Virus record (IMG/VR): IMGVR_UViG_3300044640_002737
Coordinates: 309,468-373,467 of that record
Source: a virus
Length of the DNA: 64,000 nucleotides
Direction: 5' to 3' (one strand)
The notes under the pieces were generated by a model. That model saw only the letters and a list, made by a program, of their open reading frames with translations, was not told the origin of the DNA and searched no databases. Below, piece by piece: positions 6,457 to 64,000 of this stretch (its first letter is position 1; every line of letters begins with the position of its first letter). Both the position numbers and the translations under genes were made by a program.

Positions 6457-6458
6457 AT

Positions 6459-6713
6459 TTAGTATATATTAGAGGACTCATCCTTTGGTAATTTTTTAAT
6501 CTCTGCAGATAATTCTTTCATAAGTCCAGAAATCTCAGCATATATTAATGCTTGCTTATCTATACTGGAAACTTCAGAATTAACATCCCCCTCTTTTTTA
6601 GAAGCTTTAGCTTCCTTTATATCATCGAATTTTTTTGTTATTTCGAGTTTAATTTCTTGAACTCTACCCTTTCCTTCGATTTCATTCATTTTAAAATCTT
6701 TGAAATTAAGCAT
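6459..6713 (-). CDS. Small probable internal head protein (84 aa)
   Basis: A lysine/glutamate-rich helical protein. Its N-terminus LNFKDFKMNE|I looks like a capsid-targeting leader with a cleavage site at Glu11, comparable to T4 internal proteins that begin MKTYQEFIAEA. Its start overlaps the end of the upstream gene by 8 nt, and its stop is 2 nt before the next start, so it is translationally coupled in the head operon. No catalytic motif. Confidence 0.65.
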   Translation of the reverse strand: MLNFKDFKMNEIEGKGRVQEIKLEITKKFDDIKEAKASKKEGDVNSEVSSIDKQALIYAEISGLMKELSAEIKKLPKDESSNIY

Positions 6714-18303: not shown

Positions 18304-18840
18304 TTATTGCTGGTTTTTCTGCACCTTCAGTACATCCCTAATTTTTGAAGCCAATTCATAGTGCTCATTTTCCAGAGCTTTCTTTAGCATTTCTTCTAGC
18401 TTACTTTCATCTGAATCCTCACCCGATATACTGGTTATGGAAACTGGTTCCATAGCTAATACTCTCTGTGGGGAATATATAACCTCTAATGTGGAATCTA
18501 TTATCAAATGATCATCGTAATAATCTTCAGGATCATCCATCTCATCCTTTATCTTATTTAGTTCCTCTAGTGACCATTCAGCATTATTCCAAAAAATCAT
18601 CCAGTGACTGTATATAAATTCAGATATATCGTTATCGATTACGTGCTTAAGTAAATTTTTAAGCTCGTTTTTTATATCATTTTTGGTTACCCCAGTCAGA
18701 AAGGGTTTCCTTTTAAGCCCAGGGATTCCTGAAATTCCCTCTCCGACACCTATTTTAAAGCATTTATTAACCTCAAAAATTGTATCCCAGTCCAGACTCA
18801 GAATAACTTTGTCTATTAACTTACTGTTTTTACCCTTCAT
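18304..18840 (-). CDS. Hypothetical protein with a C-terminal UVR-like motif (178 aa)
   Basis: The last 30 residues (SKLEEMLKKALENEHYELASKIRDVL) match the UVR helical-hairpin motif found in UvrB, UvrC, McsA and related proteins, where it mediates protein-protein contact. The first 140 residues, including WMIFWNNAEWSLEELNKIKDEMDDPEDYYDD, are not recognised. It follows the gp62-like gene by 12 nt, where T4 has regA, but it does not look like RegA. A repair- or clamp-loader-associated adaptor is possible. Confidence 0.55.
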   Translation of the reverse strand: MKGKNSKLIDKVILSLDWDTIFEVNKCFKIGVGEGISGIPGLKRKPFLTGVTKNDIKNELKNLLKHVIDNDISEFIYSHWMIFWNNAEWSLEELNKIKDEMDDPEDYYDDHLIIDSTLEVIYSPQRVLAMEPVSITSISGEDSDESKLEEMLKKALENEHYELASKIRDVLKVQKNQQ

Positions 18841-23317: not shown

Positions 23318-24286
23318 TTAGAATGTATAAAATTTTGAATTTAAAATATCATTAATATCGACAGCAACAGTTCCTGATTTAGAACAAGCTATGGAAGCAG
23401 CTATATTACAAATCGATAATGATTCCCTGATCCCTATATTACTTACCATGCATAATGATAAAATCGATATAACAGTGTCTCCCGCTCCCGAAACATCATA
23501 TACATCCATTGGATATCCAGGATCATAAACGGATTCATCCTTGTTGATATAGATTAATCCTCTTTCTGATAAGGTTACCAATATTGAATCAATATCATTA
23601 TCGGATATAAATTTCCTAGCATGCTGCTCTATACTAATTAGATCCAAATTAGAACCATTAAATCCAGTCATGTTAGAAAATTCAGATAGATTTGGCTTGA
23701 GTAAGCTACAACCTGAATAACTAGGAATATTTAAAATCTTGGGGTCTGCTATAGCTGGAATACCAGAAATATTACATTTTGATATTATATTAGATATCAT
23801 AGCTGGTGTCAAAAGACCTTTATTATAATCCTCAATTAAAACGCAATCATAATTAATGTACATCTCGTTAAATCTAGAAATTATAATTTCTTCTGTTAAC
23901 GAGTCAATATAATTACGGTTTTCGTCATCGACTCTAAATAATTGATGATTTGATCCTGAAATGTATCTTGATTTTAGTGTTGTTCTTCTGGTAGAATCTT
24001 CAAAAATAAATGAATTGTCGCTGTATTCAGCTACTAGATTTTTTATAGTATTTCCGTGAATATCATCGCCAACCGTAGTAATTATATCAGCATTACCTCC
24101 CATCGATTTTATATTACGTAAAATATTACCAGATCCGCCCAAATAATATTCAGAGCGTATTACATCCAATATAGGGACAGGTGCCTCCGGTGAGATTCTT
24201 GTAACGCTACCATGGACATAATGATCCAGCATCACATCGCCAACAATCAATATTCTAACAGATCTAAATTTATCTAATAAATCCAA
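23318..24286 (-). CDS. PfkB-family sugar kinase, HldA/RfaE domain-I-like heptose-7-phosphate kinase
   Basis: The 322-residue protein follows the N-terminal domain of HldE/RfaE closely: ILIVGDVMLDHYVHGSVTRISPEAPVPILDV near the N-terminus, YYLGGSGNILRNIKSMGG, HQLFRVDDEN, KPNLSEF and the PfkB catalytic motif DVSGAGDTV near the C-terminus. It would phosphorylate heptose-7-phosphate at C1 on the way to ADP-heptose. The nucleotidyltransferase half of HldE is absent. This fits the heptosyltransferase genes at 49940-55845. The start is TTG at 24286. It sits between portal and ligase genes. Another PfkB substrate cannot be excluded. Confidence 0.78.
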   Translation of the reverse strand: MDLLDKFRSVRILIVGDVMLDHYVHGSVTRISPEAPVPILDVIRSEYYLGGSGNILRNIKSMGGNADIITTVGDDIHGNTIKNLVAEYSDNSFIFEDSTRRTTLKSRYISGSNHQLFRVDDENRNYIDSLTEEIIISRFNEMYINYDCVLIEDYNKGLLTPAMISNIISKCNISGIPAIADPKILNIPSYSGCSLLKPNLSEFSNMTGFNGSNLDLISIEQHARKFISDNDIDSILVTLSERGLIYINKDESVYDPGYPMDVYDVSGAGDTVISILSLCMVSNIGIRESLSICNIAASIACSKSGTVAVDINDILNSKFYTF

Positions 24287-49480: not shown

Positions 49481-49517
49481 AAAAAGAAAATGCTGGACTT
49501 ATGATCCAGCATTTTCT
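49481..49517 (-). terminator. Intrinsic terminator ending the surface-modification operon
   Basis: A perfect 13-bp stem, AGAAAATGCTGGA (49485-49497) with TCCAGCATTTTCT (49505-49517), has a 7-nt loop, and the minus-strand 3' side continues TTTTTA. It is 13 nt after the stop of the DUF6165 gene. Confidence 0.88.
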
Positions 49518-49530
49518 CAATTTCTAATAC

Positions 49531-49902
49531 TTAGTATTTTTCGTATGATTTTTCCTCGGTAAAAATAGAACCATATTTTAAATTTATATACTTTTTAATT
49601 TCTGACCTTTTGTCATTAGTTATATAAACTGATCTAGCCAAAGATATAAATTCCGAGTCAAATATTTTTCTTCTTTCCTTTATTCTTATCCTATCCTCTA
49701 TCTTCCATAATTCCTCGTTGATTAAAACAAGTCCGGAAAAATCTTCGTAATCAATCAAAAGATCGTTAAATACAATCGAATAGAGGTATTCAAACTCACT
49801 GTTTATATTAACAAGTTTATCCCTATCCGATATATTATTTTTCTTAATTTCTAATATTGATAACTTATCAACAATTTCTCCCACAGAAACGTCTATTCGC
49901 AT
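49531..49902 (-). CDS. DUF6165-like small protein (123 aa)
   Basis: The N-terminal block IDVSVGEIVDKLSILEIKKNNISDRDKLVNINSEFEYL is typical of DUF6165 proteins, which often lie beside heptosyltransferases and surface-glycan genes; their function is unknown. The rest is helical, with no catalytic motif. It is the last gene of the operon that begins with the giant fibre, 37 nt after the 959-aa fusion and just before a strong terminator. Confidence 0.65.
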   Translation of the reverse strand: MRIDVSVGEIVDKLSILEIKKNNISDRDKLVNINSEFEYLYSIVFNDLLIDYEDFSGLVLINEELWKIEDRIRIKERRKIFDSEFISLARSVYITNDKRSEIKKYINLKYGSIFTEEKSYEKY

Positions 49903-49939
49903 AAATTAAAAAGTTTTTCTATTTATCATATTTTTAATA

Positions 49940-52819
49940 CTATCTATTATCTATGTATATAAGGACCTCATTATAATACTCTATAAAATGTTCGTTCCAT
50001 AGATCCCATTTTATATCAATACCATCTAATGATAATACCTCATATCGATCGAACTCTATTAATATATTATCCCGGAAATCCCTGAATTTTTCTTTATTTT
50101 CTTTACTCATTAAATGCCATTCGCCGGCAATCTTCTTTATATTTTTTTTAATAAAGTCAAGATTATCTTTCTTAAAAATCTCATATTCACCGCCCTCACA
50201 ATCAGTTTTCATGAAATCTATCCTATTCAGACCGTATAATTTAACGAGCTTATCAAAGGTAATGGATTCCATATGTGTTTCTCCTCCAAATAATTGATCA
50301 TATTCGATAACTCCATTTATATCTGATAATCCCTTATTTATATGAGTAACCGGATTACCTAATGTATTTTTAACTAGTGTAGTAAATTCACTCTCACTAG
50401 GTTCTATACAAAATACATGTTTAGGATTTTTCTTTAATATCGAATATGTGAATGGGCCGACGCTAGAACCAACATCCAATACAATATCGGAATGATCAAC
50501 TTCAAAGAATCTCTCATATATTTTTTGCTCAAATATCTCATTATACATAAGTTTCTTGTGATAATTACCATTAGAACTACCATCGTTCATCCAACCCCAA
50601 TCAAAATTTGGTATGTGATTTTCCCCAATTAATCTATCTATTTCCTTGGTAACCATATTAGAATTAATTTGTTTTGTACACTCAAACATTCTCTCCGAAT
50701 TTTTATGTAATGGACACCAATTCCAATCTCCAGCATCTAGCATTTCCGAATTAAAGCATCCGTGGCAAACATCCTCGTTAATAATTCTATATGTGTCGGA
50801 TGAAGTTTCAGAAAATCTTTCACTAAATCCAGAAATCAAAATGATTGGTAATTTACATGACCAAGCTAGCCAACTTAATCCAGAGCCCAAGCCAATGAAA
50901 AATTCACACTCACACAGATCATTTATTACATCCTGTAGATTTCCGCCTTTAAACACATCAACATTTTTTGGATATGCATTATTCATATATCCGTCTCCCT
51001 CTCTGGAATATATCATGCATTCATAACCAATCGAATTAAGATGATCAATTACCTCTTGCCATCCGTTAGGATTGTTCCAGTATTTGGCCTGAGCAGTTGA
51101 ATGAAATCCTATCCCAACTTTTTTCTTTTTTTTCACGTTAGGTAAATTTAAACGAGGCTTTATTTCCTTATATTCGAGACCGAGTATATCAGTGGCTGTC
51201 TTCTGTAAAGGTTGTTTTCTAAAGTCGTTTGGAACCTTATTATAATCAATATTTCCGTTACTGTCATAATACCATCCAATATTATATTGGGCATATAAAT
51301 TATTTACAGTTTCCCCTGGATTGACAAAAGTAATATTGGGATACTGTTCAATGAATAAGTGATTAATGAACGTAGAAACTATCAATTCGCAATTATGAAT
51401 TTTTCTAAATTCCTCCATGTAAGGTATCCACGCAAGAGTATCACCTAGAGATTTAGATCCAAATGCAATATAAACTCTTCTGTCCCTAAGATCTAATGAA
51501 TTCTTATATATTATTTCACCATTTTCATATACCGTTGTGTCCCATTTGGTATAATATTTTCTGTTTAATTTCGACCAGCTATTAAAATTTAGGAGATCCG
51601 AATGTATAATTTTTCCACCATCAGAGAATTCCACCTTAAATTTATTACTACTACTGCCTCTTAATTCGAAATAGGGCTGACCAACAAAATGTTGTATAAA
51701 CTCGTAGTCATTTTCTATTTTAGGCTGTGGTGTTATTTCTATCTCCATTACCTTCCTATAGAAATCCAATAATGTCCTACCAAAATTAGAATCATCAGGT
51801 ACCTGATATTCAATATCAGATTCAAGCATATCAATAAGTCGTCCCGATATTTCTTTTATATCACCCTCTATCGGAGTGATGTATCCATCATACATGTTAT
51901 AATATTGCGGTAGATTTCTGGCTAATATCTTCATGCCATATCCTATGGCTTCTCTTATAACTAAAGGATTGCATTCCCAGGTAGAATTAAACATCATGGC
52001 GTCACATGCTATCATGAATTCATCAACATCGTCACGCTCCCCCCATATCTTAACATTGCTTGGTAGATTCTTTGTTATATCTCCCCAGTAATTTTCGAAA
52101 TTTGGAGCTAAATTACCTACAAAATGAAAAAATACATCAGGACTAGATGATTCTATGAATCTAGCAATTTCTATTCCCTCTCCCTGATTCTTTCCACTAG
52201 TCCATAATCCAACATTGAGAACGTTTTTCTTATTTCTATCAAATCCCAGTTTTTTGATAGAATTCTTCCTATTTTTTATTCTTATATCTGTTTTATTCTC
52301 ATATGGATATAGATGAAGCTCCTTATATGAGGACTCAGATGCGAATGTTTTTTCCGTATGATGTGGTGAAATTAATGAATATGCATCAGGTTTTAATTTT
52401 TTAAATTCTTTCGGATCAAACCAAATATTATGACAGGTTTCAATCATTCTCCAGCTTCTATCATCGGAATATAACATGTTAATTAAATCAGCAGGGATCT
52501 TATTAAAACTTTCAAATCCCTCTAATATTTCCTCTGAATGAACTAAATCTATATCATTATCCTTAATTATCTGAATTATCTCATATTTTCTTCTAGTATC
52601 GGATGTATCCCCCAGTGTAAAGAAATGATCACTGTCAATCATTTCAAGTATTGAATTTCTTTGGACAACATAGGTATCACTAAATTTGGAGTACTCGACA
52701 ACAAAGATTTCTATCTCATCACTATATTCATTAAGTTTCTGTATTCTCTTCAGTGCGAACTGAGGCATTCCACCGGTTGATAGATGTGGGGTTAAATATA
52801 ATAGTTTAATTCTCTTCAT
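49940..52819 (-). CDS. Three-domain enzyme: GT4-like glycosyltransferase, TibC-type O-heptosyltransferase, FkbM methyltransferase
   Basis: Residues 1-355 are a GT-B glycosyltransferase (TPHLSTGGMPQ near the N-terminus; NVGLWTSGKNQ at 202-212; AMMFNSTWECNPLVIREAIGYG at 274-295). Residues about 370-733 match bacterial autotransporter O-heptosyltransferases (TibC/Aah type): FVGQPYFELRG, SLGDTLAWIPYMEEFRKIHNC at 457-477, YNIGWYYDS, SGLSWLAWSCKLPIILISGFSE and the metal-binding Cys685, Cys688, Cys702 and Cys714. Residues about 775-958 are an FkbM-type methyltransferase (LDVGSSVGPF 781-790, DFMKTDCEGGEYE 868-880). The gene overlaps its upstream neighbour by 14 nt. Substrate inferred: the adjacent fibre, or host surface protein. 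Confidence 0.85.
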   Translation of the reverse strand: MKRIKLLYLTPHLSTGGMPQFALKRIQKLNEYSDEIEIFVVEYSKFSDTYVVQRNSILEMIDSDHFFTLGDTSDTRRKYEIIQIIKDNDIDLVHSEEILEGFESFNKIPADLINMLYSDDRSWRMIETCHNIWFDPKEFKKLKPDAYSLISPHHTEKTFASESSYKELHLYPYENKTDIRIKNRKNSIKKLGFDRNKKNVLNVGLWTSGKNQGEGIEIARFIESSSPDVFFHFVGNLAPNFENYWGDITKNLPSNVKIWGERDDVDEFMIACDAMMFNSTWECNPLVIREAIGYGMKILARNLPQYYNMYDGYITPIEGDIKEISGRLIDMLESDIEYQVPDDSNFGRTLLDFYRKVMEIEITPQPKIENDYEFIQHFVGQPYFELRGSSSNKFKVEFSDGGKIIHSDLLNFNSWSKLNRKYYTKWDTTVYENGEIIYKNSLDLRDRRVYIAFGSKSLGDTLAWIPYMEEFRKIHNCELIVSTFINHLFIEQYPNITFVNPGETVNNLYAQYNIGWYYDSNGNIDYNKVPNDFRKQPLQKTATDILGLEYKEIKPRLNLPNVKKKKKVGIGFHSTAQAKYWNNPNGWQEVIDHLNSIGYECMIYSREGDGYMNNAYPKNVDVFKGGNLQDVINDLCECEFFIGLGSGLSWLAWSCKLPIILISGFSERFSETSSDTYRIINEDVCHGCFNSEMLDAGDWNWCPLHKNSERMFECTKQINSNMVTKEIDRLIGENHIPNFDWGWMNDGSSNGNYHKKLMYNEIFEQKIYERFFEVDHSDIVLDVGSSVGPFTYSILKKNPKHVFCIEPSESEFTTLVKNTLGNPVTHINKGLSDINGVIEYDQLFGGETHMESITFDKLVKLYGLNRIDFMKTDCEGGEYEIFKKDNLDFIKKNIKKIAGEWHLMSKENKEKFRDFRDNILIEFDRYEVLSLDGIDIKWDLWNEHFIEYYNEVLIYIDNR

Positions 52820-53735
52820 ATAAATTAATATTATTGTGTGTTATGGATCTTATTTTTTCAGTTATATCTTCGGTTAATCCGTTATATTCAATTATGACAG
52901 ATATCATGTCATCGCGAGATAATTCAAGATCTATTATATCTCTATCAGCTATTTCGTATATTTTTGTGGTTGAATTAAGGTGGATTTTTAAATCAATATG
53001 ATTTTTAACACCATAGAAATAAATTTTAATAGAATTATTTTCCATAGCATTTTTAGCTATGAAATACCTAAATTCAGAAAATCCCGAATAATTAAAAAGA
53101 TCTACTCCATTATGAAAAAGTATATGGTCATCAACATAACAATCATCCACTTTATACGGCAAATCTGAATTCTCCAGGTAGTTTTTTAGCCAGGTTTCAG
53201 CAATTCCACAAAATTCAATATATTCATTTATATTTAATCCAGATATAAATGATACTAAGTTTTTCCTATCAAATAGCATAAAATGTAGACTTACCCAATG
53301 CTCATGGAAATGATAGAAATTACATTCCGCATCGGATAGTATACCACTCAAAACGGTATCGTCAATTTTTATATCATATATTATATGGTAGAAATATTCA
53401 TAATCATACGTTAATGCATATTCTGATAATTTTTTTACCTGATGGATATTTGCCCATCCGTAATCAGGTAGACATCTATTCATAATTATTTTCTTCCCTT
53501 TACATCGATATTCAGACCAAACCGATACCGATTTAATTGGCCAGTCGATAATCGGATTATCTTTAGTTCTTATATAATAATCGCATAATGAGGAGACCCT
53601 ATTTGGTATATCAATAGGACTATTAAGCATAACATCCAGACCGAGATTTTTTAGTGTTCTTATATTAGATTCTAATACACTAATCTTTTCCTCATTATCG
53701 CAATATGAACTAATCAATATTATTTTATTACCCAT
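52806..53735 (-). CDS. Probable GT-A type glycosyltransferase (309 aa)
   Basis: The N-terminus IILISSYCDNEEKISVLESNIRTLKNLGLDVMLNSPI and the later YEYFYHIIYDIKIDD (about residues 112-126), a DxD-like acidic segment after a beta strand, resemble bacterial glycosyltransferases that act on lipopolysaccharide or capsule. I cannot name the family. The C-terminal 80 residues may be a separate beta domain. It overlaps the downstream fusion gene by 14 nt and follows the GT9 gene by 8 nt. Confidence 0.55.
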   Translation of the reverse strand: MGNKIILISSYCDNEEKISVLESNIRTLKNLGLDVMLNSPIDIPNRVSSLCDYYIRTKDNPIIDWPIKSVSVWSEYRCKGKKIIMNRCLPDYGWANIHQVKKLSEYALTYDYEYFYHIIYDIKIDDTVLSGILSDAECNFYHFHEHWVSLHFMLFDRKNLVSFISGLNINEYIEFCGIAETWLKNYLENSDLPYKVDDCYVDDHILFHNGVDLFNYSGFSEFRYFIAKNAMENNSIKIYFYGVKNHIDLKIHLNSTTKIYEIADRDIIDLELSRDDMISVIIEYNGLTEDITEKIRSITHNNINLYEEN

Positions 53736-53743
53736 CCGGATAC

Positions 53744-54676
53744 TTATTTATTAACAGTGGACATTATTTTATTATAAACACTCATTACGCTTGGATGGCA
53801 TTCGAAAGTTTTCTTTCCCTCCAGACATCCGACCAACGAAGGTATTCCCTGTATCGTGTTCCATTCTCTTACACCATATTTTATATCAGACGCACATTTC
53901 AAATTACATCCACCAGAAACATAATGGTATTTATATTCCTGAGATCCCTTTCTATATGGTGCTCTAAACTTATTATCTATTGAACTGCCTAATTGAATTA
54001 TTTCAGAATCGGTAGTACCTGCTAAATGTAGAAGACCAGAATCCATAGTAACGAAGCATTCACTTTTTTCAATCAGCCACCACGTCTGAGATAATGATGT
54101 TTTGTTCTGTAAATTCATACCCAATTCAATATCAAAATTAAAGGTTGGCTTTTGAACATTGGATCCACCCATTTCGGATGACTCCTTTCCGACAGAAACC
54201 ACACTTATTCCGCCCGCATTCAAAGCTCTGACTAATAGAATCCATTTTTCTCTATCCCATGTTCTGGATTCCCAGTTTTGTACGGGATGTATAAGAACGT
54301 ATCTATCGGGAAGTCCCTGTATTTCTTCAAAATCAGAAGGGAAAAAATCCAAAGTAAGTTCCTCCTGATTTAACATGAATCCAAGGCTAATTGCATGGAA
54401 CTGCCTAATGTCAATAGTATTATGCTTATTGCATATGCCATCGGATTTATAGTTTACATCGAAAGTTCTAAATATTTCGAAATCATCATCCAAATCAAGA
54501 TCACCAGGAAGATATAGAGAATCAACATATGGATTATTTCTAAATATATCTGTATGATGAGTTATTATAGATATTTTTCTACCATATGAGTAATATAGTT
54601 TACGCAAAACTGGCGATACACATAATGTATCGCCAATAGCTCTAGCCTCGCTTATATCTATACAGAGTTTCTTCAT
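53744..54676 (-). CDS. GT9-family heptosyltransferase-like protein (310 aa)
   Basis: A GT-B enzyme of the heptosyltransferase group: RAIGDTLCVSPVLRKLYYSYG near residues 12-32, YVLIHPVQNWESRTWDREKW near 125-145 and TMDSGLLHLAGTTDSEIIQLG near 212-232 (the family D-S-G-x-x-H-x-A motif). The C-terminus has four Cys (GGCNLKC, GCLEG, FECHP), like the metal-binding set of TibC-type enzymes. It would add a heptose or related sugar from an ADP/NDP donor. Confidence 0.75.
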   Translation of the reverse strand: MKKLCIDISEARAIGDTLCVSPVLRKLYYSYGRKISIITHHTDIFRNNPYVDSLYLPGDLDLDDDFEIFRTFDVNYKSDGICNKHNTIDIRQFHAISLGFMLNQEELTLDFFPSDFEEIQGLPDRYVLIHPVQNWESRTWDREKWILLVRALNAGGISVVSVGKESSEMGGSNVQKPTFNFDIELGMNLQNKTSLSQTWWLIEKSECFVTMDSGLLHLAGTTDSEIIQLGSSIDNKFRAPYRKGSQEYKYHYVSGGCNLKCASDIKYGVREWNTIQGIPSLVGCLEGKKTFECHPSVMSVYNKIMSTVNK

Positions 54677-54682
54677 AAGGAA

Positions 54683-54958
54683 TTACATATCCTTCGTAAA
54701 TAATCCAGTCTCAAAATCGAGTTTACCTTTACCGTATTTACCGACTACCTTCTCCTGCAAAGCTTCCTCCCTAGCATATATGTCAGAAGCTTCGTTATGT
54801 AAGGATTCTAATTCGTTGTTTATAGCGGAAAGGTCCTTCTCGTAAAAGGATTTCTGTACACTTAATCTACCCACTTTAATTATATTATCCATCAAAACCT
54901 CTTTCAGATTTTGAATTTCTAAAATTAGATCTTCAGGTAATTTTAATTCATTTTCCAT
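54683..54958 (-). CDS. Small coiled-coil protein (91 aa)
   Basis: Helical and heptad-like from about residue 8 to 75, with a short C-terminus FETGLFTKDM. No catalytic motif. It lies between the two GT9 genes, 6 and 11 nt from them, so it belongs to the operon. It might be an assembly partner of a glycosyltransferase or a chaperone, but there is no family evidence. Confidence 0.55.
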   Translation of the reverse strand: MENELKLPEDLILEIQNLKEVLMDNIIKVGRLSVQKSFYEKDLSAINNELESLHNEASDIYAREEALQEKVVGKYGKGKLDFETGLFTKDM

Positions 54959-54969
54959 ATTTTTTATTT

Positions 54970-55845
54970 TTATTGTTTATTTATGCTATCTATAATATCG
55001 CTAATATTAAAAATGTCATTCATATCGGAATATGGTATTCTACTGATATCCTCAAATAACATATATTTCTGATAGTAATTATTCGATATATCGTGCTTTT
55101 CCGTATGTGGATTAGCAATTATATTATCATGTATATTATAGCCAAAAACTTTGGGATTTGTTCCGATCCAGGCAACTGTTGACGGTAAACCCAGGGAAGA
55201 TGCTATATGCATCGCAGATGAGTCTATAAGAAGTCTTTTTTCTGAAAGGGTCAGCATAATTGCAATGCTTCTAAAATTATCCAATGCAGAAATTGTGTTA
55301 TCATATTGAAATTGATCTTCCCTTCTTATATGTACCACGGAATAATCATCTTTATAGTGCTCTATAATATTCTCAATTATTGGTTGCGGAATATCTCGGG
55401 TCCAGCTATATTTTAGAGGTTGCTCTATGCTTCCACCATTCGGATGTATAGCCATTATAGGCTTATCTAATTTATAAAACTGCTCATAATATTGTCTTTC
55501 AGATTTACTTATAAATAATTCAGGCAGTTCCCCATCATAAGGGACACCACACAAATCGCACCATATCTCGATAAGATGTTTTTTTTCCGTTATAAAATCG
55601 GAGGTTGTGTATGGATCGGTAATAAATACTTTAGCTTCCTTGTTGTTAATAAAATCCCTATAAATTGGACCCGCATTTGCGTGGGTAATAATTCTATTAA
55701 CATTATTATTACCTTTAAAAACATCGGGATATGATGTTACCACTATTATGTTATCTCTAGTATACTGTTTACGTAAAGCTTTTACTACAGCGGTGGACAT
55801 AAAGCTTTTACCCAATCCACCAGAAACCTCCAATATTATATTCAT
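54970..55845 (-). CDS. GT9-like glycosyltransferase (291 aa)
   Basis: The GT-B/GT9 layout is visible: VSGGLGKSFMSTAVVKALRKQY near residues 7-28, IMAIHPNGGSIEQP near 138-151, SVVHIRREDQFQYD near 173-186 and LLIDSSAMHIASSLGLPSTVAWIGTNP near 212-238 (the family DS-x-x-H-x-A motif). The N-terminal Gly-rich loop GGLGKS is like the acceptor-side loop of heptosyltransferases. No membrane segment. It follows the DUF2061 gene by 4 nt. Confidence 0.72.
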   Translation of the reverse strand: MNIILEVSGGLGKSFMSTAVVKALRKQYTRDNIIVVTSYPDVFKGNNNVNRIITHANAGPIYRDFINNKEAKVFITDPYTTSDFITEKKHLIEIWCDLCGVPYDGELPELFISKSERQYYEQFYKLDKPIMAIHPNGGSIEQPLKYSWTRDIPQPIIENIIEHYKDDYSVVHIRREDQFQYDNTISALDNFRSIAIMLTLSEKRLLIDSSAMHIASSLGLPSTVAWIGTNPKVFGYNIHDNIIANPHTEKHDISNNYYQKYMLFEDISRIPYSDMNDIFNISDIIDSINKQ

Positions 55846-55849
55846 GTGC

Positions 55850-56104
55850 TTATTTTTTTGATCCTATCCTGATGAATTTATACCAAATTCTCTCATGCAA
55901 AAAATATATAATAGGCTTGAAAACAATCTCTCCCATACCTAGTAATGATGCTAATTCTACCGAAGCTCCTAACATATATGCAGTAATTACAGTTGTCATC
56001 GTGCCTAATATTCTATAAGAAAGTGTTTTTAATATGTGTCTTATCATATTAGATCTATTTTCTTTTCTATCTGACTTTTTTAGAATTTCCTGATTAGTTT
56101 CCAT
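55850..56104 (-). CDS. DUF2061 membrane protein (84 aa)
   Basis: Residues about 24-78 (HILKTLSYRILGTMTTVITAYMLGASVELASLLGMGEIVFKPIIYFLHERIWYKF, given as landmarks) match DUF2061, a short two-helix membrane family of unknown function. Its TAA/ATG junction overlaps the nucleotidyltransferase gene by one base. In this operon it sits between sulfate/nucleotide enzymes and glycosyltransferases, so it may handle a membrane-linked sugar or help the activated intermediates; this is inference. Confidence 0.75.
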   Translation of the reverse strand: METNQEILKKSDRKENRSNMIRHILKTLSYRILGTMTTVITAYMLGASVELASLLGMGEIVFKPIIYFLHERIWYKFIRIGSKK

Positions 56105-56508
56105 TATAATTTTCCTTCTTTCCTTAATTCCTCTCTAACCGCAGTTGCTGATATATTGGCTATTTCAGTTGGTGGGATATGTTCGATTATATCGTAACCA
56201 ACACCTCTACCAAATTCAACTGAGCATATATCTGGAATTATTATGATCTTTGCTAGCCTTTCACTAACTAGATCTCTAATCTCGGAATGTATATTAAGCA
56301 TAACTTCGTTGGGAGTCCAAGGATTTTTTTCATCTGGCTCAATATCTCTGATTGCAATTAATACCTTCTTACCATCGTTTATAGCTTGTTGAAACATAGC
56401 TTTGTGACCTGGATGAAGTGGTTGCCATCTACCAATAAACATAGCATATTGACTATCTTTAGGCTGCAGTGATGATTTTACATGGACTTTTTTTGACCAA
56501 TTTTCCAT
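56104..56508 (-). CDS. HxGH-type nucleotidyltransferase (134 aa)
   Basis: A small nucleotidyltransferase of the cytidylyl/NMN-adenylyl type: FIGRWQPLHPGHKAMFQQA near residues 24-42 carries the HxGH motif, and ISATAVREELRKEG at the C-terminus is the ISxTxxR motif. Substrate unknown. It is not a plain ATP sulfurylase: the QTRNPxHRxH-type motif is absent. Its start lies 31 nt inside the APS kinase gene, so the two are coupled. It might activate a sugar phosphate to an NDP-sugar for the transferases downstream. Confidence 0.72.
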   Translation of the reverse strand: MENWSKKVHVKSSLQPKDSQYAMFIGRWQPLHPGHKAMFQQAINDGKKVLIAIRDIEPDEKNPWTPNEVMLNIHSEIRDLVSERLAKIIIIPDICSVEFGRGVGYDIIEHIPPTEIANISATAVREELRKEGKL

Positions 56509-56927
56509 AATATTTGTTTTAGTGATTCAGTTTCTGATATTCCAGTAGTGTCAATATCAGTAAAATCTTCAGTAGGTTTTTGATATTCTGCTACATGAAA
56601 AGATTCTCTTCCCCTTATTTCAGAAGTATGTATATAAAATTCGACAGCTCCATTTTCGCATTTTAGACTGTCTCTAAGATCTTTATACGGGCTAACCAAT
56701 GATATTATTATATTGTTATTAACGTCCTGCCTAGATAAGTATTTAGCTATCGAATGAGCTGTCTCTATGTTCTTTCTTCTTCCCGCTTCAGAATAATCCT
56801 TATTATTCAGTATTTCCCTCAGATCGTCACCATCTATAACGAAAGATTTATCCAAAGAATTTTTTAAATGATTAGCGAGGGTTGTTTTTCCTGAATGAGG
56901 TTGACCGGTTAGTATATAAATTGCCAT
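56478..56927 (-). CDS. cysC: APS kinase-like (CysC family)
   Basis: The 149-residue P-loop kinase has Walker A GQPHSGKTTLA (8-18), IDGDDLREILN, YSEAGRRKNIETAHSIAKYL and the SPYKDLRD motif, in the CysC order. It would phosphorylate adenylyl sulfate to PAPS, the donor for the sulfotransferase encoded just upstream. It is slightly short at the C-terminus. No ATP sulfurylase is visible here, so APS would have to come from the host. It overlaps the next gene by 31 nt. Confidence 0.82.
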   Translation of the reverse strand: MAIYILTGQPHSGKTTLANHLKNSLDKSFVIDGDDLREILNNKDYSEAGRRKNIETAHSIAKYLSRQDVNNNIIISLVSPYKDLRDSLKCENGAVEFYIHTSEIRGRESFHVAEYQKPTEDFTDIDTTGISETESLKQILWKIGQKKSM

Positions 56928-56956
56928 TATTATAAAAATTAATTATCGATTATTTA

Positions 56957-57775
56957 TTACACATATTCAAAATAATCATAGAACCATCCATAGGTATTCT
57001 TGATTGCCTGAGAAAGCTCAAATCCTAATATCTCCTCATAATCATCAGGTAGTCTTTTAAATTCGGTTCTTAATTTATGATCACCGTATATTCCATGAAT
57101 TAAATCATTTTCATGTGTTACCTGCTCGATTGTTTTAAAATTATGTCCTGGATAATAGTCAATCCCTATATAGTCGTAGAATCTTTTAACCTCTGATTCT
57201 GGATCGCTCATAAGGTCCTCGTATCTAATAAAAAGTATATTTTTATCTATTCCCTGATCTATTATATCTCTCAATCTATCAACAGAAACACCAACAGGTA
57301 CACCATCAGCCCAAATATCTATTCTTTTTCTGAGAGTTGTACCGACCAATTCCGGAACATTCTGCACATGATTCTCGCGATGTGGGTTTTTTCTAAAATT
57401 CTTCTCCATTGATGAATATACGGATCTAAGATCCCTAACCATACAGACAACCTTGGGTTCGTGCTGGAGCATATTAAGAAGTCCGTAATTTACTCCCCAT
57501 TCCCTACTTTTTTCGAGTACAAATGGTTTGTCCGTTATGTCATTAAAATATCCCTGAATTCCTGCCATACAATATCCTATGAAAGCTTTCTTCATGACCT
57601 CCGGATCCTGAGCTAAAACAGCTTGCGAATTATTATAAGCGTTCTTGGAGGAAAGCACCATGTCAGCAAGTCCCGAAGTGGGAGTGCAATAGAAATCAGG
57701 ATTTTGTGCAATTATATTTTGCCAAAGTGTTGATCCAGATCTAGGTAATGATGAGTTGAATATTATTTTTTTCAT
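56957..57775 (-). CDS. PAPS-dependent sulfotransferase
   Basis: The N-terminus IIFNSSLPRSGSTLWQNII holds the 5'-phosphosulfate loop (PRSGSTL), and VCMVRDLRSVYSSMEKNF holds the 3'-phosphate site (R-x7-S) of cytosolic-type sulfotransferases. RYEDLMSDPESEVKRFYDYIGI is also family-typical. It would transfer sulfate from PAPS to a hydroxyl or amine of a sugar or protein. I chose ATG at 57775; a TTG at 57778 would add one residue. The start codon lies inside an inverted repeat. It is the first gene after the giant fibre. Confidence 0.85.
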   Translation of the reverse strand: MKKIIFNSSLPRSGSTLWQNIIAQNPDFYCTPTSGLADMVLSSKNAYNNSQAVLAQDPEVMKKAFIGYCMAGIQGYFNDITDKPFVLEKSREWGVNYGLLNMLQHEPKVVCMVRDLRSVYSSMEKNFRKNPHRENHVQNVPELVGTTLRKRIDIWADGVPVGVSVDRLRDIIDQGIDKNILFIRYEDLMSDPESEVKRFYDYIGIDYYPGHNFKTIEQVTHENDLIHGIYGDHKLRTEFKRLPDDYEEILGFELSQAIKNTYGWFYDYFEYV

Positions 57776-57820
57776 CAATCGAGATGTTTTTATTATTATA
57801 CTGCGATTGATGAAAAAAAT
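57765..57820. promoter_or_regulatory. Inverted repeat covering the sulfotransferase start
   Basis: Two perfect 17-nt inverted arms (57765-57781 and 57804-57820, core CGATTGATG followed by A7) flank a 22-nt spacer. In the minus-strand transcript the downstream arm contains the ATG of the sulfotransferase, so folding would hide its start; there is no T-run after the arm, so it is not a classic terminator. It may hold down translation after the fibre gene. Confidence 0.55.
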
Positions 57821-57830
57821 TTCAAATTAT

Positions 57831-60800
57831 TTATTCTGATTGCGGGGTTTCAGTTCTTTTGGGTTGTGGTGTTTCAGCGCCTTTCCAGAATTTAGTATTC
57901 TTATCTTTCCTTGTACCTATAACAAGTACATCATATTCTATATCAAGATTTGCCTTAATTGTTATCTTTGAATACGTGTCGTCTATAACACCATAAGCAA
58001 TTCCAAATCCATTTTTAGGTGTTATCCAAACTTGAGCGTCTTTATTTAGATATTTGAAATAATCTGGTAAGTCAATTATTGCTTCCCCGTTAACAACTAC
58101 AATATTAAATCTATAAATATTATCCCCTGCTGTTGGTGATTCAACAAAAGAGTGATTTAATCTCAATTCATCACTTAATTTAGGGTTTGGGTGGTCAATA
58201 CTAAAAGTACCACCACCAGTTTTAACAATATATTGGACAAATGTTGCGTTATTTTGATTAGCAGTAAGATTACTTCCTAACATATGCACATTATAGCAAC
58301 CTGCTGTATCATTATTAAAACCACCTCCTATGGAGCTATAACATGAACCACTTCGAATTTTATGATATCTTCCGCCCCCGATAAAAGAATGGCAAGCACC
58401 CTGATATATTGCATTCTGCCTTCCACCAGCGATCGAACTAAGACAAGCATAACCAGTGATAATATTTCCATATCCACCTCCAATAAATGATCTTATGGCA
58501 TCACCATCAATGGCATTATCCTGTCCTCCAACAACTGAGGAGCATCCTGTGTTTTTAGTTACAAAGTTGCCCTTTCCTCCTCCGATAAATTTATGGCTAG
58601 CAGAACCAATCTGATTTGAAGCTCCCCCTCCGATTGCTGAATAACCAGCGTCCACGGAATTTTGATATCCTCCTGAAATCACAGCAGCTATACCACAACT
58701 ACCTATCTCATTTCCACATCCACCACCAATTGTTGCAAGATCTGAATCACCTGCAGCACTATTGGTATTACCTCCACCGATAGTTGCCCTACGACTAGCT
58801 ATGGAATTATCAAATCCACCACCAATAGTTGAGCAAGCACCAGTTATAAGGTTACATAACCCTCCCGAAATGGTAGCTCTTGGAATACAAACTCTGTTAA
58901 GACAACCACCACCAATTGTTGAATAACAGGAGCTAATATAGTTAACAAGGCCTCCACCGATTACTGAATTACAGGATAGGTTAGTTGTTCGATTATAGCA
59001 ACCTCCACTGATTACTGAAAAAGCAGCTCCTGAAGAATTGCATCTACCGCTTAGGGCTGCACTGTAATTTGCAGTTGCCTGGTTATTCGCACCACATCTA
59101 ATTGATGAACAAATACCGCCACCTAATACAATAACTGCAGCTGCACCACCACTACTAGTACCTGAAGTACCATTAGTACCTGATGTTCCTGGGCTACCTG
59201 GACTACCTGGACTACCGTTAGTACCTGAAGTTCCATTAGTACCTGAGGTTCCGTTAGTACCGTTAGTACCAGATGTTCCTGGGCTACCTGGACTACCTGG
59301 ACTACCGTTAGTACCTGAAGTTCCATTAGTTCCATTAGTTCCCGATGTTCCAGATGCACCATCTACACCATTGATACCTGATGTTCCATTAGTACCTGAA
59401 GTTCCATTAGTACCTGAAGTTCCATTAGTACCTGAAGTTCCATTAGTACCTGATGTCCCATTGGTTCCTGAAGTTCCATTAGTACCGTTAGTACCTGATG
59501 TCCCATTAGTTCCTGAAGTTCCATTAGTACCGTTAGTACCTGATGTCCCATTAGTTCCTGAAGTTCCATTAGTTCCGTTAGTACCCGATGTTCCGTTAGT
59601 ACCCGATGTTCCGTTAGTACCCGATGTTCCGTTAGTACCATTAGTACCTGATGTTCCATTAGTACCGTTTAATCCGCTTACACCCGATGTTCCATTAGTA
59701 CCTGAAGATCCATTAGTACCGTTAGTACCTGAAGTTCCGTTAGCACCTGAAGTTCCATTGGTTCCGTTGGTTCCTGAAGTTCCATTAGTTCCGTTGGTTC
59801 CTGAGGTTCCATTAGTTCCTGAAGTTCCGTTAGTACCTGAAGTTCCATTGGTTCCATTGGTTCCCGAAGTTCCGTTAGTACCTGAAGTTCCATTGGTTCC
59901 ATTGGTTCCCGAAGTTCCGTTAGTACCCGAGGTTCCATTAGTTCCATTGGTTCCTGAAGTTCCATTGGTTCCTGAAGTTCCATTAGTTCCGTTGGTTCCT
60001 GAAGTTCCATTAGTTCCGTTGGTTCCTGAGGTTCCATTAGTTCCTGAAGTTCCGTTAGTACCTGAAGTTCCATTGGTTCCATTGGTTCCTGAAGTTCCAT
60101 TAGTACCTGATGTTCCATTGGTTCCTGAAGTTCCATTGGTTCCGTTAGTTCCTGAAGTTCCATTGGTTCCTGAAGTTCCATTAGTACCTGAAGTTCCATT
60201 AGTACCTGAAGTTCCATTAGTTCCGTTGGTTCCTGATGTTCCATTAGTACCGTTAGTACCTGATGTTCCATTAGTTCCTGAGGATCCATTAGTACCCGAT
60301 GTTCCGTTGGTTCCATTAGTACCTGATGTTCCATTAGTTCCTGAGGATCCATTAGTACCCGATGTTCCGTTGGTTCCATTAGTACCTGATGTTCCATTGG
60401 TTCCTGAGGATCCATTGGTTCCTGAGGATCCATTAGTACCAGATGTTCCATTAGTACCGTTAGTACCTGATGTTCCATTGGTTCCTGAGGATCCATTAGT
60501 ACCAGATGTTCCATTAGTACCGTTAGTACCTGATGTTCCATTGGTTCCTGAGGATCCATTAGTACCTGATGTTCCGTTGGTTCCATTAGTTCCTGATGTT
60601 CCATTAGTACCTGATGTTCCATTAGTACCGTTAGTACCTGAGGATCCATTAGTACCTGATGTTCCATTGGTTCCTGATGTTCCGTCAGTACCATTGGTTC
60701 CTGATGTTCCATTGGTTCCTGATGTTCCATTAGTACCTGATGTTCCATTAGTACCGTTAGTACCTGATGTTCCATTGGTTCCTGATGTTCCGTTAGTACC

Positions 60801-63800
60801 TGAGGATCCATTAGTACCTGATGTTCCATTGGTACCGTTAGTACCCGATGTTCCGTTAGTTCCTGATGTTCCGTTAGTACCTGATGTTCCGTTAGTACCT
60901 GAGGTTCCGTTAGTACCGTTAGTACCTGAAGTTCCATTGGCTCCTGATGTTCCGTCAGTACCGTTAGTACCTGAGGATCCATTAGTACCTGAGGTTCCGT
61001 TAGTACCTGATGTTCCGTCAGTACCGTTAGTACCCGATGTTCCATTGGTTCCTGAGGATCCATTAGTACCTGAGGTTCCGTTAGTACCGTTAGTACCTGA
61101 TGTTCCATTGGTTCCTGAGGATCCATTAGTACCTGATGTTCCGTTAGTACCTGATGTTCCATTGGTTCCTGAAGTTCCGTCAGTACCTGAAGTACCATTG
61201 GTTCCATTGGTTCCATTGGTTCCTGATGTTCCGTTGGTTCCATTAGTACCTGAAGTTCCATCAGTACCTGAAGTTCCGCCACCAACAACTAATGATCCGG
61301 TAATCCAAGTACCTGAACTCTCACCGTGTATGTCTTGCGATGTTGGATTAGAGGTGTAAGCAGTAACCTCGATATAATCAGTAGAACCATTAAAATATAC
61401 TATAATATCAATTTCTTGACCGTACCCTTCAGTAGTAACAAGTGGAAATTGTTGAATCGCAACTTGTGTACTACCATTTTTTCTAAGTTGGATATTATTT
61501 TGCCCTGATACTGTTGACGCAGGATACCACCATACCGAAACTTGAATAATATAATACCCTTCAATGTTTGGTTGGAATTTATTGGATGTTATCCAACCAT
61601 TAGGGTCAAACTCATCAACAAATGTTACAACTTGGTCACTTCCATTTGTTATTGTTTGAATGGTACCTCCTTTAACTCCTTTAGCAACGTAATTAGATGC
61701 TGTTAAATTACCTCCATCAGTCCCTGAAGTTCCGTCAGTACCTGAGGTACCATTGGTTCCGTTTGTTCCTGATGTTCCATTGGTTCCTGATGTTCCATTG
61801 GTTCCTGATGTTCCATTGGTTCCGTTTGTACCTGACGTACCATTAGTTCCTGACGTACCATCCGTTCCACTAGTTCCGTTAGTACCTGAAGTTCCATTAG
61901 TTCCGTTAGTACCTGATGTTCCATTAGTACCGTTAGTACCTGAAGTTCCATTAGTTCCCGATGTTCCGTCAGTACCGTTAGTACCTGAAGTTCCGTTTGA
62001 TCCCGATGATCCGTTAGTACCTGAAGTTCCTGATGTACCAGCGATTTGACCAACTGATGTTATTATATATGAATAGTTAGCATTACCTTCAGTATAAAAT
62101 ACAACACTACGACTTGTCGAATCTAAATTATTAAGATAAAGTCTTATCGCCATTCTATCAGTTGTGGATATTGATGTTGTAGGTAATACTATATCAACCT
62201 CAAGTAATCCCGGATTAGTTGGGTCAACATAAGGCAATGCACTAACATTAGAAGTTATTGTAGGTCCCATTAAAGACCCCGATGAATCAGCCAATTGGAT
62301 TTCAACATACCCTTCAACATCAGCGTTTACCGCAGGTAGTAAATAATATAACTTAAATCTTTGTACACCACCAGGTATTATTGAAAATCCTAATTCAGGT
62401 GTCATAAAATCTTGAACTAAAGCACCAGTTTGACTACCTGTTAAATTTGTAGTTACCGTTACTTGACCCGTAGATGTTGGATTTAAACTTAATTCTTTGT
62501 AACCTGAAACGTCCGAATTAATACTTTCATTGAAAAAATATATTTGACCTGATGATATTCCATCTACGCCGCTAGTTCCAGCTGTTCCTGATGTTCCGTT
62601 AGTACCTGAAGATCCGTTAGTACCTGATGTTCCATTAGTTCCATCAGTTCCCGATGTACCGTTAGTACCACTTGTTCCATCGGTACCACTTGTTCCATCG
62701 GTACCACTTGTTCCATCAGTACCACTTGTTCCATCAGTACCACTTGTTCCATCAGTACCACTTGTTCCATCAGTACCACTTGTTCCATCAGTACCACTTG
62801 TTCCATCAGTTCCTGAGGTTCCATCAGTTCCTGAGGTTCCAGATGTTCCATCAGTTCCTGAGGTTCCATCAGTACCACTTGTTCCAGAAGTTCCATTAGT
62901 ACCACTTGTTCCAGAAGTTCCATCGGTACCACTTGTTCCATCGGTACCTGAAGTTCCATCAGTACCACTTGTTCCAGAAGTTCCATCAGTACCACTTGTT
63001 CCAGAAGTTCCATCAGTACCACTTGTTCCGCTTGTTCCATCAGTACCTGATGTTCCAGAAGTTCCATTGGTACCACTTGTTCCATCAGTACCACTTGTTC
63101 CAGAAGTTCCATCGGTACCACTTGTTCCGCTTGTTCCATCAGTACCACTTGTTCCATCAGTACCACTTGTTCCATCAGTACCACTTGTTCCAGAAGTTCC
63201 ATCGGTACCACTTGTTCCGCTTGTTCCGTCAGTACCACTTGTTCCAGAAGTTCCATCAGTACCTGAAGTTCCGCTTGTTCCATCAGTACCTGAAGTTCCA
63301 TCAGTACCACTTGTTCCAGAAGTTCCATCAGTACCACTTGTTCCAGAAGTTCCATCGGTACCACTTGTTCCGCTTGTTCCATCGGTACCTGAAGTTCCAT
63401 CAGTACCTGAAGTTCCATCAGTACCTGAAGTTCCATCAGTACCACTTGTTCCAGAAGTTCCATCAGTACCTGAAGTTCCGCTTGTTCCGTCAGTGCCTGA
63501 GGTTCCGCTTGTTCCATCGGTTCCGCTTGTTCCATCGGTACCACTTGTTCCAGAAGTTCCATCAGTACCACTTGTTCCATCAGTACCACTTGTTCCATCA
63601 GTACCACTTGTTCCATCAGTACCTGAAGTTCCATCAGTACCGCTTGTTCCAGAGGTTCCGTCAGTACCACTTGTTCCCGAAGTTCCGTCGGTTCCACTTG
63701 TTCCATCAGTACCACTTGTTCCATCAGTTCCACTTGTTCCATCAGTTCCACTTGTTCCATCAGTTCCTGAGGTTCCATCAGTTCCTGAGGTTCCAGATGT

Positions 63801-64000
63801 TCCATCAGTTCCTGAGGTTCCACTTGTTCCATCGGTACCAGAAGTCCCATCGGTTCCACTTGTTCCATCAGTACCACTTGTTCCATCAGTACCACTTGTT
63901 CCATCAGTTCCACTTGTTCCATCAGTTCCACTTGTTCCATCAGTTCCTGAGGTTCCATCAGTTCCTGAGGTTCCAGATGTTCCATCAGTTCCTGAGGTTC
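57831..64000 (-). CDS. Giant collagen-like phage fibre protein, 5' end outside the window
   Basis: The frame is open from the window edge to the stop at 57831, at least 2056 codons. From the N-terminal side it contains: a Gly-Thr-Asp/Ser collagen-like block (about 64000-62566); a beta domain (about 62565-62049); a second collagen-like block (about 62042-61718); a C1q-like domain (about 61717-61283: GYYIIQVSVWWYP, QLRKNGS, DYIEVTAYT); a long Gly-Thr-Asn/Ser block (about 61282-59152); YadA-like head repeats of the type STIGGGxxN (about 59140-58255); and a conserved C-terminal domain (FSIDHPNPK, HSFVESPTAGDNIY, IIDLPDYFKYLNKD, VIGTRKD). The first ATG in frame, at 62405, is internal. It probably forms a trimeric host-binding fibre. 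Confidence 0.85.
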   Translation of the reverse strand, partial: TSGTDGTSGTSGTDGTSGTDGTSGTDGTSGTDGTSGTDGTSGTDGTSGTDGTSGTDGTSGTSGTDGTSGTSGTDGTSGTDGTSGTDGTSGTDGTSGTDGTSGTDGTSGTSGTDGTSGTSGTDGTSGTDGTSGTDGTSGTDGTSGTDGTSGTSGTDGTSGTDGTSGTSGTDGTSGTSGTDGTSGTSGTDGTSGTDGTSGTDGTSGTDGTSGTSGTDGTSGTSGTDGTSGTSGTDGTSGTDGTSGTSGTDGTSGTSGTDGTSGTSGTDGTSGTSGTDGTSGTDGTSGTDGTSGTSGTDGTSGTSGTDGTSGTNGTSGTSGTDGTSGTSGTDGTSGTSGTDGTSGTSGTDGTSGTDGTSGTDGTSGTSGTNGTSGTSGTDGTSGTDGTSGTSGTDGTSGTDGTSGTDGTSGTDGTSGTDGTSGTDGTSGTDGTSGTDGTSGTDGTSGTNGTSGTDGTNGTSGTNGSSGTNGTSGTAGTSGVDGISSGQIYFFNESINSDVSGYKELSLNPTSTGQVTVTTNLTGSQTGALVQDFMTPELGFSIIPGGVQRFKLYYLLPAVNADVEGYVEIQLADSSGSLMGPTITSNVSALPYVDPTNPGLLEVDIVLPTTSISTTDRMAIRLYLNNLDSTSRSVVFYTEGNANYSYIITSVGQIAGTSGTSGTNGSSGSNGTSGTNGTDGTSGTNGTSGTNGTNGTSGTNGTNGTSGTNGTSGTDGTSGTNGTSGTNGTNGTSGTNGTSGTNGTSGTNGTNGTSGTDGTSGTDGGNLTASNYVAKGVKGGTIQTITNGSDQVVTFVDEFDPNGWITSNKFQPNIEGYYIIQVSVWWYPASTVSGQNNIQLRKNGSTQVAIQQFPLVTTEGYGQEIDIIVYFNGSTDYIEVTAYTSNPTSQDIHGESSGTWITGSLVVGGGTSGTDGTSGTNGTNGTSGTNGTNGTNGTSGTDGTSGTNGTSGTNGTSGTNGSSGTNGTSGTNGTNGTSGTNGSSGTNGTSGTNGTDGTSGTNGTSGTNGSSGTNGTDGTSGANGTSGTNGTNGTSGTNGTSGTNGTSGTNGTSGTNGTNGTSGTNGSSGTNGTSGTNGTSGTNGTNGTSGTNGTSGTNGTSGTNGTDGTSGTNGTSGTNGSSGTNGTNGTSGTNGTSGTNGTNGTSGTNGSSGTNGTSGTNGTNGTSGTNGSSGTNGTSGTNGTNGTSGTNGSSGTNGSSGTNGTSGTNGTNGTSGTNGSSGTNGTSGTNGTNGTSGTNGSSGTNGTSGTNGTNGTSGTNGTNGTSGTNGTSGTNGTSGTNGTSGTNGTNGTSGTNGTSGTNGTSGTNGTNGTSGTNGTSGTNGTSGTNGTNGTSGTNGTNGTSGTNGTSGTNGTNGTSGTNGTSGTNGTNGTSGTNGTSGTNGTNGTSGTNGTSGTNGTSGTNGTNGTSGTNGTNGTSGANGTSGTNGTNGSSGTNGTSGVSGLNGTNGTSGTNGTNGTSGTNGTSGTNGTSGTNGTNGTSGTNGTSGTNGTNGTSGTNGTSGTNGTNGTSGTNGTSGTNGTSGTNGTSGTNGTSGTNGTSGINGVDGASGTSGTNGTNGTSGTNGSPGSPGSPGTSGTNGTNGTSGTNGTSGTNGSPGSPGSPGTSGTNGTSGTSSGGAAAVIVLGGGICSSIRCGANNQATANYSAALSGRCNSSGAAFSVISGGCYNRTTNLSCNSVIGGGLVNYISSCYSTIGGGCLNRVCIPRATISGGLCNLITGACSTIGGGFDNSIASRRATIGGGNTNSAAGDSDLATIGGGCGNEIGSCGIAAVISGGYQNSVDAGYSAIGGGASNQIGSASHKFIGGGKGNFVTKNTGCSSVVGGQDNAIDGDAIRSFIGGGYGNIITGYACLSSIAGGRQNAIYQGACHSFIGGGRYHKIRSGSCYSSIGGGFNNDTAGCYNVHMLGSNLTANQNNATFVQYIVKTGGGTFSIDHPNPKLSDELRLNHSFVESPTAGDNIYRFNIVVVNGEAIIDLPDYFKYLNKDAQVWITPKNGFGIAYGVIDDTYSKITIKANLDIEYDVLVIGTRKDKNTKFWKGAETPQPKRTETPQSE
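58255..59140 (-). repeat. YadA-like head repeats in the fibre
   Basis: Repeats of about 24 residues carry the pattern [ST]-x-[IV]-[SG]-GG-x-x-N-x-I, for example SVIGGGLVN, STIGGGCLN, ATISGGLCN, STIGGGFDN and SSIGGGFNN. They are Cys-rich, unusual for exposed repeats, and resemble trimeric autotransporter head domains that form left-handed beta-rolls. Confidence 0.75.
59152..61282 (-). repeat. Collagen-like triplet array (Gly-Thr-Asn/Ser), block 3
   Basis: The coding strand is a run of 9-bp units for G-T-x. Larger identical units are visible, for example a 63-bp (21-residue) unit repeated in tandem near 60451-60576. A short GSPGSPGSPG stretch occurs twice near 59185-59305. Gly at every third position with Thr at X predicts a collagen-like triple helix. 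Confidence 0.85.
61718..62042 (-). repeat. Collagen-like triplet array, block 2
   Basis: About 108 residues of G-T-S/N/D triplets between the two globular domains of the fibre. Same composition as block 3. Confidence 0.85.
62566..64000 (-). repeat. Collagen-like triplet array (Gly-Thr-Asp/Ser), block 1, continuing off the window
   Basis: At least 475 residues of G-T-D-G-T-S triplets, richer in Asp than block 3, built of 9-bp and 18-bp units. The frame is consistent to the window edge, with no stop or indel, which the unbroken neighbouring frame also shows. Confidence 0.85.

Follow-up and report, generated by a model that had tools for sequence, protein, structure and literature searches.

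Gene content of the operon and the fibre gene beside it

The window analysed here is the 64,000-nucleotide right end (positions 309468-373467) of the 373,467-bp IMG/VR virus record IMGVR_UViG_3300044640_002737, and it carries an operon of glycosyltransferase and sulfation genes directly behind the gene of a giant fibre with a predicted collagen-like shaft. Coordinates refer to the window unless another contig is named. The 373-kb source genome is apparently circular, with an overlap of 307 identical bases between the contig ends that falls inside the fibre repeats. The closest relatives of its large terminase come from uncultured 460-640 kb phages, from Sphingomonas phage PAU and from the Prevotella Lak phages, and tail sheath, tail tube and neck/head-closure genes come next; the source is therefore a T4-like jumbo phage, large and from freshwater. 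The locus recurs with 100% protein identity in five further metagenome contigs (L001-L005), so the operon is no assembly accident.

The giant fibre gene (minus strand) runs on across the contig junction: its C-terminal 2055 amino acids (aa) are encoded at 57831..63998 and its N-terminal 692 aa at L081:3-2078. The joined open reading frame (ORF) stays open across the junction and encodes 2646 aa, a length that repeat collapse in assembly could change. The C-terminal part comprises a (GTS/GTN/GTD)n shaft, IGGGxxN head-like repeats and a C-terminal tip. The shaft contains 517 Gly-X-Y triplets (longest run, 244), with Thr or Ser at position X in 505/517, Ser, Asn or Asp at position Y in 510/517, and only 6 Pro. 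A stable collagen triple helix is normally rich in proline or hydroxyproline. Judged by this triplet pattern, the Thr/Ser-rich region is a putative collagen-like Gly-X-Y shaft. An earlier note, made from the sequence of the window, had seen the Thr/Ser-rich region but recognised neither the collagen-like shaft nor the cut made in the gene by the contig end. Its description of the C-terminal region as YadA-like is unconfirmed as a family assignment: the fibre C-terminus has no Pfam match, and the IGGGxxN repeats are visible by eye.

Just upstream of the giant fibre gene, L081:2135-2923 (minus strand) encodes a small fibre protein carrying the N-terminal domain of major tropism determinants (Mtd_N). 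Elsewhere in the genome, L107:2535-4367 (minus strand; about 51.5-53.4 kb of contig G000:C1, G000 being the phage genome) encodes a 610-aa protein in which a mucin-like Thr-run linker joins two laminin-G/ConA-like domains (PF13385, 112 bits), a further candidate glycoprotein.

The operon genes all share the minus strand, spaced by -31 to +52 nt, and their products were compared with Pfam, NCBIfam and PHROGs. Behind the fibre come a sulfotransferase (56957..57778; PF13469 60.5 bits, PF00685 50 bits), an adenosine 5'-phosphosulfate (APS)-kinase-like protein (56478..56927; PF01583 48 bits; TIGR00455 48 bits, under the cut-off of 138.7), an NMNAT-like nucleotidyltransferase (NTase; 56104..56508; PF01467 27 bits) with profile matches to NadM/NMNAT and an AlphaFold model (pLDDT 87) whose best fold match is NadM, and a small DUF2061 membrane protein (55850..56104; PF09834 58 bits), on which a literature search yielded nothing useful. 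These are followed by a GT9-fold glycosyltransferase, GT9a (54970..55845), a 91-aa coiled-coil-like ORF product with only a sub-threshold match to a PHROG of unknown function (54683..54958), and a heptosyltransferase-like glycosyltransferase, GT9b (53744..54676; PF01075 51 bits), which matches RfaQ/WaaF-type models under their own cut-offs. GT9a itself has no Pfam match, although 9/35 members of its family match PF01075; its AlphaFold model (pLDDT 94) has 3tov, WaaF, WaaC and TibC as top folds. Next is an ORF for a 309-aa protein (52806..53735), followed by a 959-aa fusion protein (49940..52819) that joins a GT4 domain (aa 184-336, 34 bits), a TibC-like domain (aa 402-729) and an FkbM domain (aa 780-884, 46.5 bits). 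The last gene encodes a DUF6165 protein (49531..49902; PF19662 34 bits, cut-off 27), and behind it lies a terminator on the same strand (49484..49518), a 15-bp hairpin followed by a T run (-20.9 kcal/mol, z -5.8). A simple terminator scan missed this hairpin, which was seen in the sequence and by folding.

The gene order, single direction, short gaps and single terminator described in the earlier note were thus borne out, as were its families for the sulfotransferase, APS kinase, NTase, DUF2061, GT9b, the fusion and DUF6165 (Pfam/NCBIfam) and, through family members and the modelled GT9 heptosyltransferase fold, its GT9 label for GT9a. Its label "GT-A-like" for the 309-aa protein is unsupported, as this protein matches no family in any of the three libraries; its close relatives come from the same phage species only.

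The TibC-like domain and its association with Gly-Thr repeats

The TibC-like domain (50633..51616, minus strand) matches TIGR04414 (TibC) with 273 bits against a cut-off of 200 and aligns with E. coli TibC (PDB 4rap) at an E-value of 9e-66, with 43% identity over 312 positions; TibC is its only relative of solved structure. The catalytic Asp-110 of TibC is kept as D460, and the iron-finger cysteines 339, 342, 358 and 370 as C685, C688, C702 and C714. Thr-226 and Lys-230, which hold the beta-phosphate of the donor, and Trp-305, which contacts the sugar, correspond to T575, K579 and W650, while the thumb-tip residues Phe-265/Val-266 align with Y611/M612, near alignment gaps. The exception is Arg-286, a residue in contact with the adenine of ADP-heptose; changing it to Ala abolishes or largely diminishes activity (PMC4358343), and in the phage domain it is Val (V631).

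Nearly all viral copies lack this Arg. In an alignment ungapped around the site, the position is V, L, I, A or T in 46/48 viral rows, whereas Arg occupies it in 18/22 rows taken from cellular records, a set that includes E. coli TibC. The tree has two sides, one largely viral and lacking Arg, the other largely cellular and carrying it, with 95/82 support for the split. Three of the four "cellular" rows lacking Arg fall on the viral side of the tree: L082 and L083 are possibly phage contigs placed in bacterial bins, and the neighbourhood of L084, from a Polaromonas metagenome-assembled genome (MAG), looks chromosomal by eye.

The locus is best classed as a viral, collagen-paired variant of the TibC kind, that is, of the bacterial autotransporter heptosyltransferases (BAHT; TibC, AAH; TIGR04414; PMC4358343), with which it shares the GT9-type fold, the catalytic Asp, the Thr/Lys/Trp set and the four iron-finger Cys. 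Unlike those enzymes, it is carried by a virus and fused to GT4 and FkbM, and its partner is a collagen-like fibre rather than an autotransporter adhesin; because of V631 in place of Arg-286, we call the domain BAHT-like and do not file it as BAHT.

The first 80 relatives place TibC-like genes next to or close to collagen-like genes in many divergent settings, and often the two are transcribed convergently; the fibre-BAHT pairing, for which the earlier note had proposed a search in related phages, recurs in many divergent contigs. The cultured Microcystis phage Mel-JY01 also has a TibC-like protein. In an independent association test, records were picked, among the matches listed, by DNA pattern alone, with (GTN GTS)2 repeats (n=50) or GPQ collagen (n=47). 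TIGR04414 was present in 25/50 (GTN GTS)2 records and 2/47 GPQ records (Fisher 2e-7), in 20/45 and 2/47 without near-duplicates (p 5e-6), and in 13/31 and 1/35 on contigs of 20-70 kb (p 1e-4). TibC lay within 10 kb of the repeats in 13/20 cases, against 6.2 expected under uniform placement (P 3e-4). The link between TibC and the repeats is a strong association rather than proof.

The kind of enzyme also appears to vary with its neighbour. Collagen of the G[TS]x type occurs in the loci of 0/19 Arg-type copies versus 24/50 non-Arg copies, and four examined neighbours of cellular Arg-type copies match AIDA, two strongly (L102, 689 bits; L349, 85 bits) and two weakly. In the Polaromonas MAG, a viral-type TibC-like gene and a lipoprotein-like gene lie convergently 8 nt apart (L084:9896-11339); the partner is small, has a lipobox-like signal and GTS/GTA repeats, and is built almost only of GT/GS triplets. 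This pair was possibly acquired horizontally. Within the Polaromonas family, TIGR04414 exceeds its cut-off in 2/401 genomes, namely the seed and one in which it stands beside an AIDA protein, and the pair is therefore a single cellular case. Taken together, the collagen counts, the AIDA neighbours and the Polaromonas pair suggest that enzyme type follows substrate type. A literature search turned up no report of a link between TibC-like enzymes and phage fibres.

Not every neighbour is collagen-like. In contig L011, very Thr/Ser-rich, non-collagen proteins of the TPTNT type (12977-14977 and 5098-6867, minus strand) are encoded beside the TibC-like gene and represent possible alternative substrates.

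Predicted sulfation genes and sugar-donor supply

The sulfotransferase has many phage relatives, and the block sulfotransferase, APS kinase, NTase, DUF2061 and GT9a recurs in dozens of phages near fibres. Across 82 scanned loci, 80 of them sulfotransferase loci, GT9a was found in 74, APS kinase in 57, NTase and DUF2061 in 46 and TibC-like genes in 30. A head-repeat fibre-like gene is present in 48/60 distinct sulfotransferase-block loci, within two genes in 29; relatives of the operon without an adjacent fibre, which the earlier note had named as contrary evidence, are thus mostly not what we found. A single orthologous fibre across these loci is not claimed, as similarity upstream of the sulfotransferase is mostly based on the head repeats and the tip domain occurs in 17/60 loci. 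In the cultured Pelagibacter phage HTVC111P, an annotated tail-fibre gene is followed by a GT9a homologue (26% identity) with a one-base overlap. Because the block recurs near phage fibres, the glycan is probably sulfated.

The classical ATP sulfurylase (PF01747) was not found in the phage genome or in nine related records, the CysD/CysN type not having been searched; APS would therefore come from the host. The NTase was considered as a minimal ATP sulfurylase and dropped, given its NMNAT-like fold. At 56104-56927 and in relatives, the APS-kinase-like and NMNAT-like genes match one half each of phrog_10255, which hints at a two-domain phage protein.

Outside the operon, a PfkB kinase resembling HldA, the heptose-7-phosphate kinase, is encoded at 23318..24286 (minus strand; PF00294 95 bits). 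The earlier note's HldA-like assignment holds to the extent that the protein matches TIGR02198, but its 301 bits stay under the equivalog cut-off of 345. The genome also encodes a GmhA-like protein (188 bits, cut-off 209) and an HldC-like protein (107 bits, cut-off 181.5), which together with the kinase would cover three of the four reactions that lead from sedoheptulose-7-phosphate to nucleoside diphosphate (NDP)-heptose. In other clades, a heptose-type NTase and kinase lie directly behind TibC (L027, L055). The heptose-derived sugars proposed earlier are plausible through the GmhA-, HldA- and HldC-like genes, but the Arg that contacts adenine is lost in nearly all viral copies; we consider the chance that the transferred sugar is of heptose type somewhat better than even. 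The GmhA-like gene shares 47 bases (L106:8149-8195) with the preceding gene on the same strand, which encodes a 235-aa protein (L106:8149-8856).

Probable fibre glycosylation and competing explanations

The analysis shows which genes are present and in what order, which residues are kept, how the arrangement recurs and with what it is statistically associated; from this we infer the substrate, donor, order of steps and benefit of a system that probably glycosylates the virion fibre, with the TibC-like domain acting first and extension, methylation and sulfation of the shaft glycan following. The TibC-like domain would place the first sugar, most likely heptose-type, on Thr/Ser of the G-T/S-S/N/D shaft before or during fibre assembly, with NDP-heptose supply helped by the GmhA-, HldA- and HldC-like enzymes. 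The fused GT4 and the two GT9 enzymes would extend the glycan, FkbM would O-methylate it, and the sulfotransferase would sulfate it using 3'-phosphoadenosine 5'-phosphosulfate (PAPS) supplied partly by the APS kinase. The resulting sugar coat may stabilise, protect or disguise the fibre. The suggestion in the earlier note that the phage glycosylates its own fibre is thus well supported by the comparative evidence, short of proof, while its emphasis on a YadA-like head as the target was probably wrong, the recurring partner being the collagen-like shaft.

Several observations weigh against this interpretation. All the functions are predictions from the genes, and the replacement of Arg-286 makes the donor nucleotide uncertain. 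The GmhA, HldA and HldC matches all fall under equivalog cut-offs, and GmhB was not found in the phage genome. No G[TS]x collagen appears in the DNA examined around 26/50 non-Arg copies, some of these stretches being short, and the association tests were not environment-matched, with only near-duplicates removed. GT4, GT9 and sulfotransferases are also common in lipopolysaccharide (LPS) and capsule synthesis.

Glycosyltransferases in phage host-recognition islands have so far been interpreted as tools acting on host LPS, and this locus and its relatives offer a specific, testable alternative, namely O-glycosylation of protein dedicated to giant collagen-like fibres. If true, this could account for the way in which phages build very long proline-free collagen-like shafts and give clues to the shielding or tuning of fibres. 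It could also carry the TibC family beyond bacterial adhesins into viruses and supply enzymes that may glycosylate simple GTS/GTN repeats.

A more specific version, which we regard as tentative and rather unlikely, is that the phage TibC-like clade changed both donor nucleotide and substrate and coats proline-free (GT[SND])n shafts on Thr/Ser, so that a sulfated, methylated glycan replaces proline/hydroxyproline in stabilising the triple helix. Sugars might stabilise such a helix; the nearest precedent is mimivirus L230 (PMC9614988), a virus enzyme that likewise adds sugar to low-proline viral collagen-like proteins. Unlike the phage enzyme, L230 hydroxylates Lys and glucosylates hydroxylysine, belongs to a eukaryotic virus and is by description unrelated to TibC. 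Glycosylated phage particles are reported for mycobacteriophages (Freeman et al. 2023, cited in PMC10955285), although the description given in PMC10955285 includes no TibC-like enzyme or collagen-like fibre.

The main competing explanation holds that the operon remodels host LPS/O-antigen or capsule in infected cells, for superinfection exclusion or receptor masking, and that its site behind the fibre is a hypervariable host-recognition island. Loci for surface polysaccharides typically contain GT9, GT4, FkbM and sulfotransferases, and in pelagimyophages, T4-like phages with glycosyltransferases beside tail-fibre genes, the host-recognition clusters of the same genome region, with rfaE and mostly GT8 enzymes, were interpreted as modifying the host O-chain (PMC7029224). 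Against this, the central enzyme here belongs to a protein O-glycosyltransferase family, its association is with one fibre repeat type and not with collagen-like fibres generally, the viral-type Polaromonas copy pairs with a GTS-repeat lipoprotein, and the operon is situated in the structural part of the genome, with neck and terminase genes alongside. Alteration of host surface glycans, the other option in the earlier note, is therefore less likely than fibre glycosylation, and we judge it unlikely.

A target for the operon different from the adjacent shaft, either elsewhere in the virion or among secreted proteins, is also improbable; examples would be the head-repeat tip and the mucin-like Thr-rich proteins. 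Some TibC loci do have Thr-rich non-collagen fibres (L011), this phage encodes the Thr-rich laminin-G protein of L107, and about half of the non-Arg copies (26/50) lack a nearby G[TS]x collagen; the GT-repeat association, however, came from records picked by the repeat alone, and the Polaromonas partner offers little besides GT/GS triplets. That the TibC-collagen association is a lineage effect, two functionally unlinked traits of one group of large freshwater phages, is very doubtful: most records are metagenomic large phages and the tests remove near-duplicates only, but the pairing spans several TibC sub-clades with differing gene order and orientation, shows shorter distances within contigs than uniform placement would give, and turns up again in a Polaromonas genome.

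Apart from the fibre and its operon, the window encodes a UvdE-type UV endonuclease and a UVR-motif protein (16862-17761 and 18304-18840) beside replication genes.

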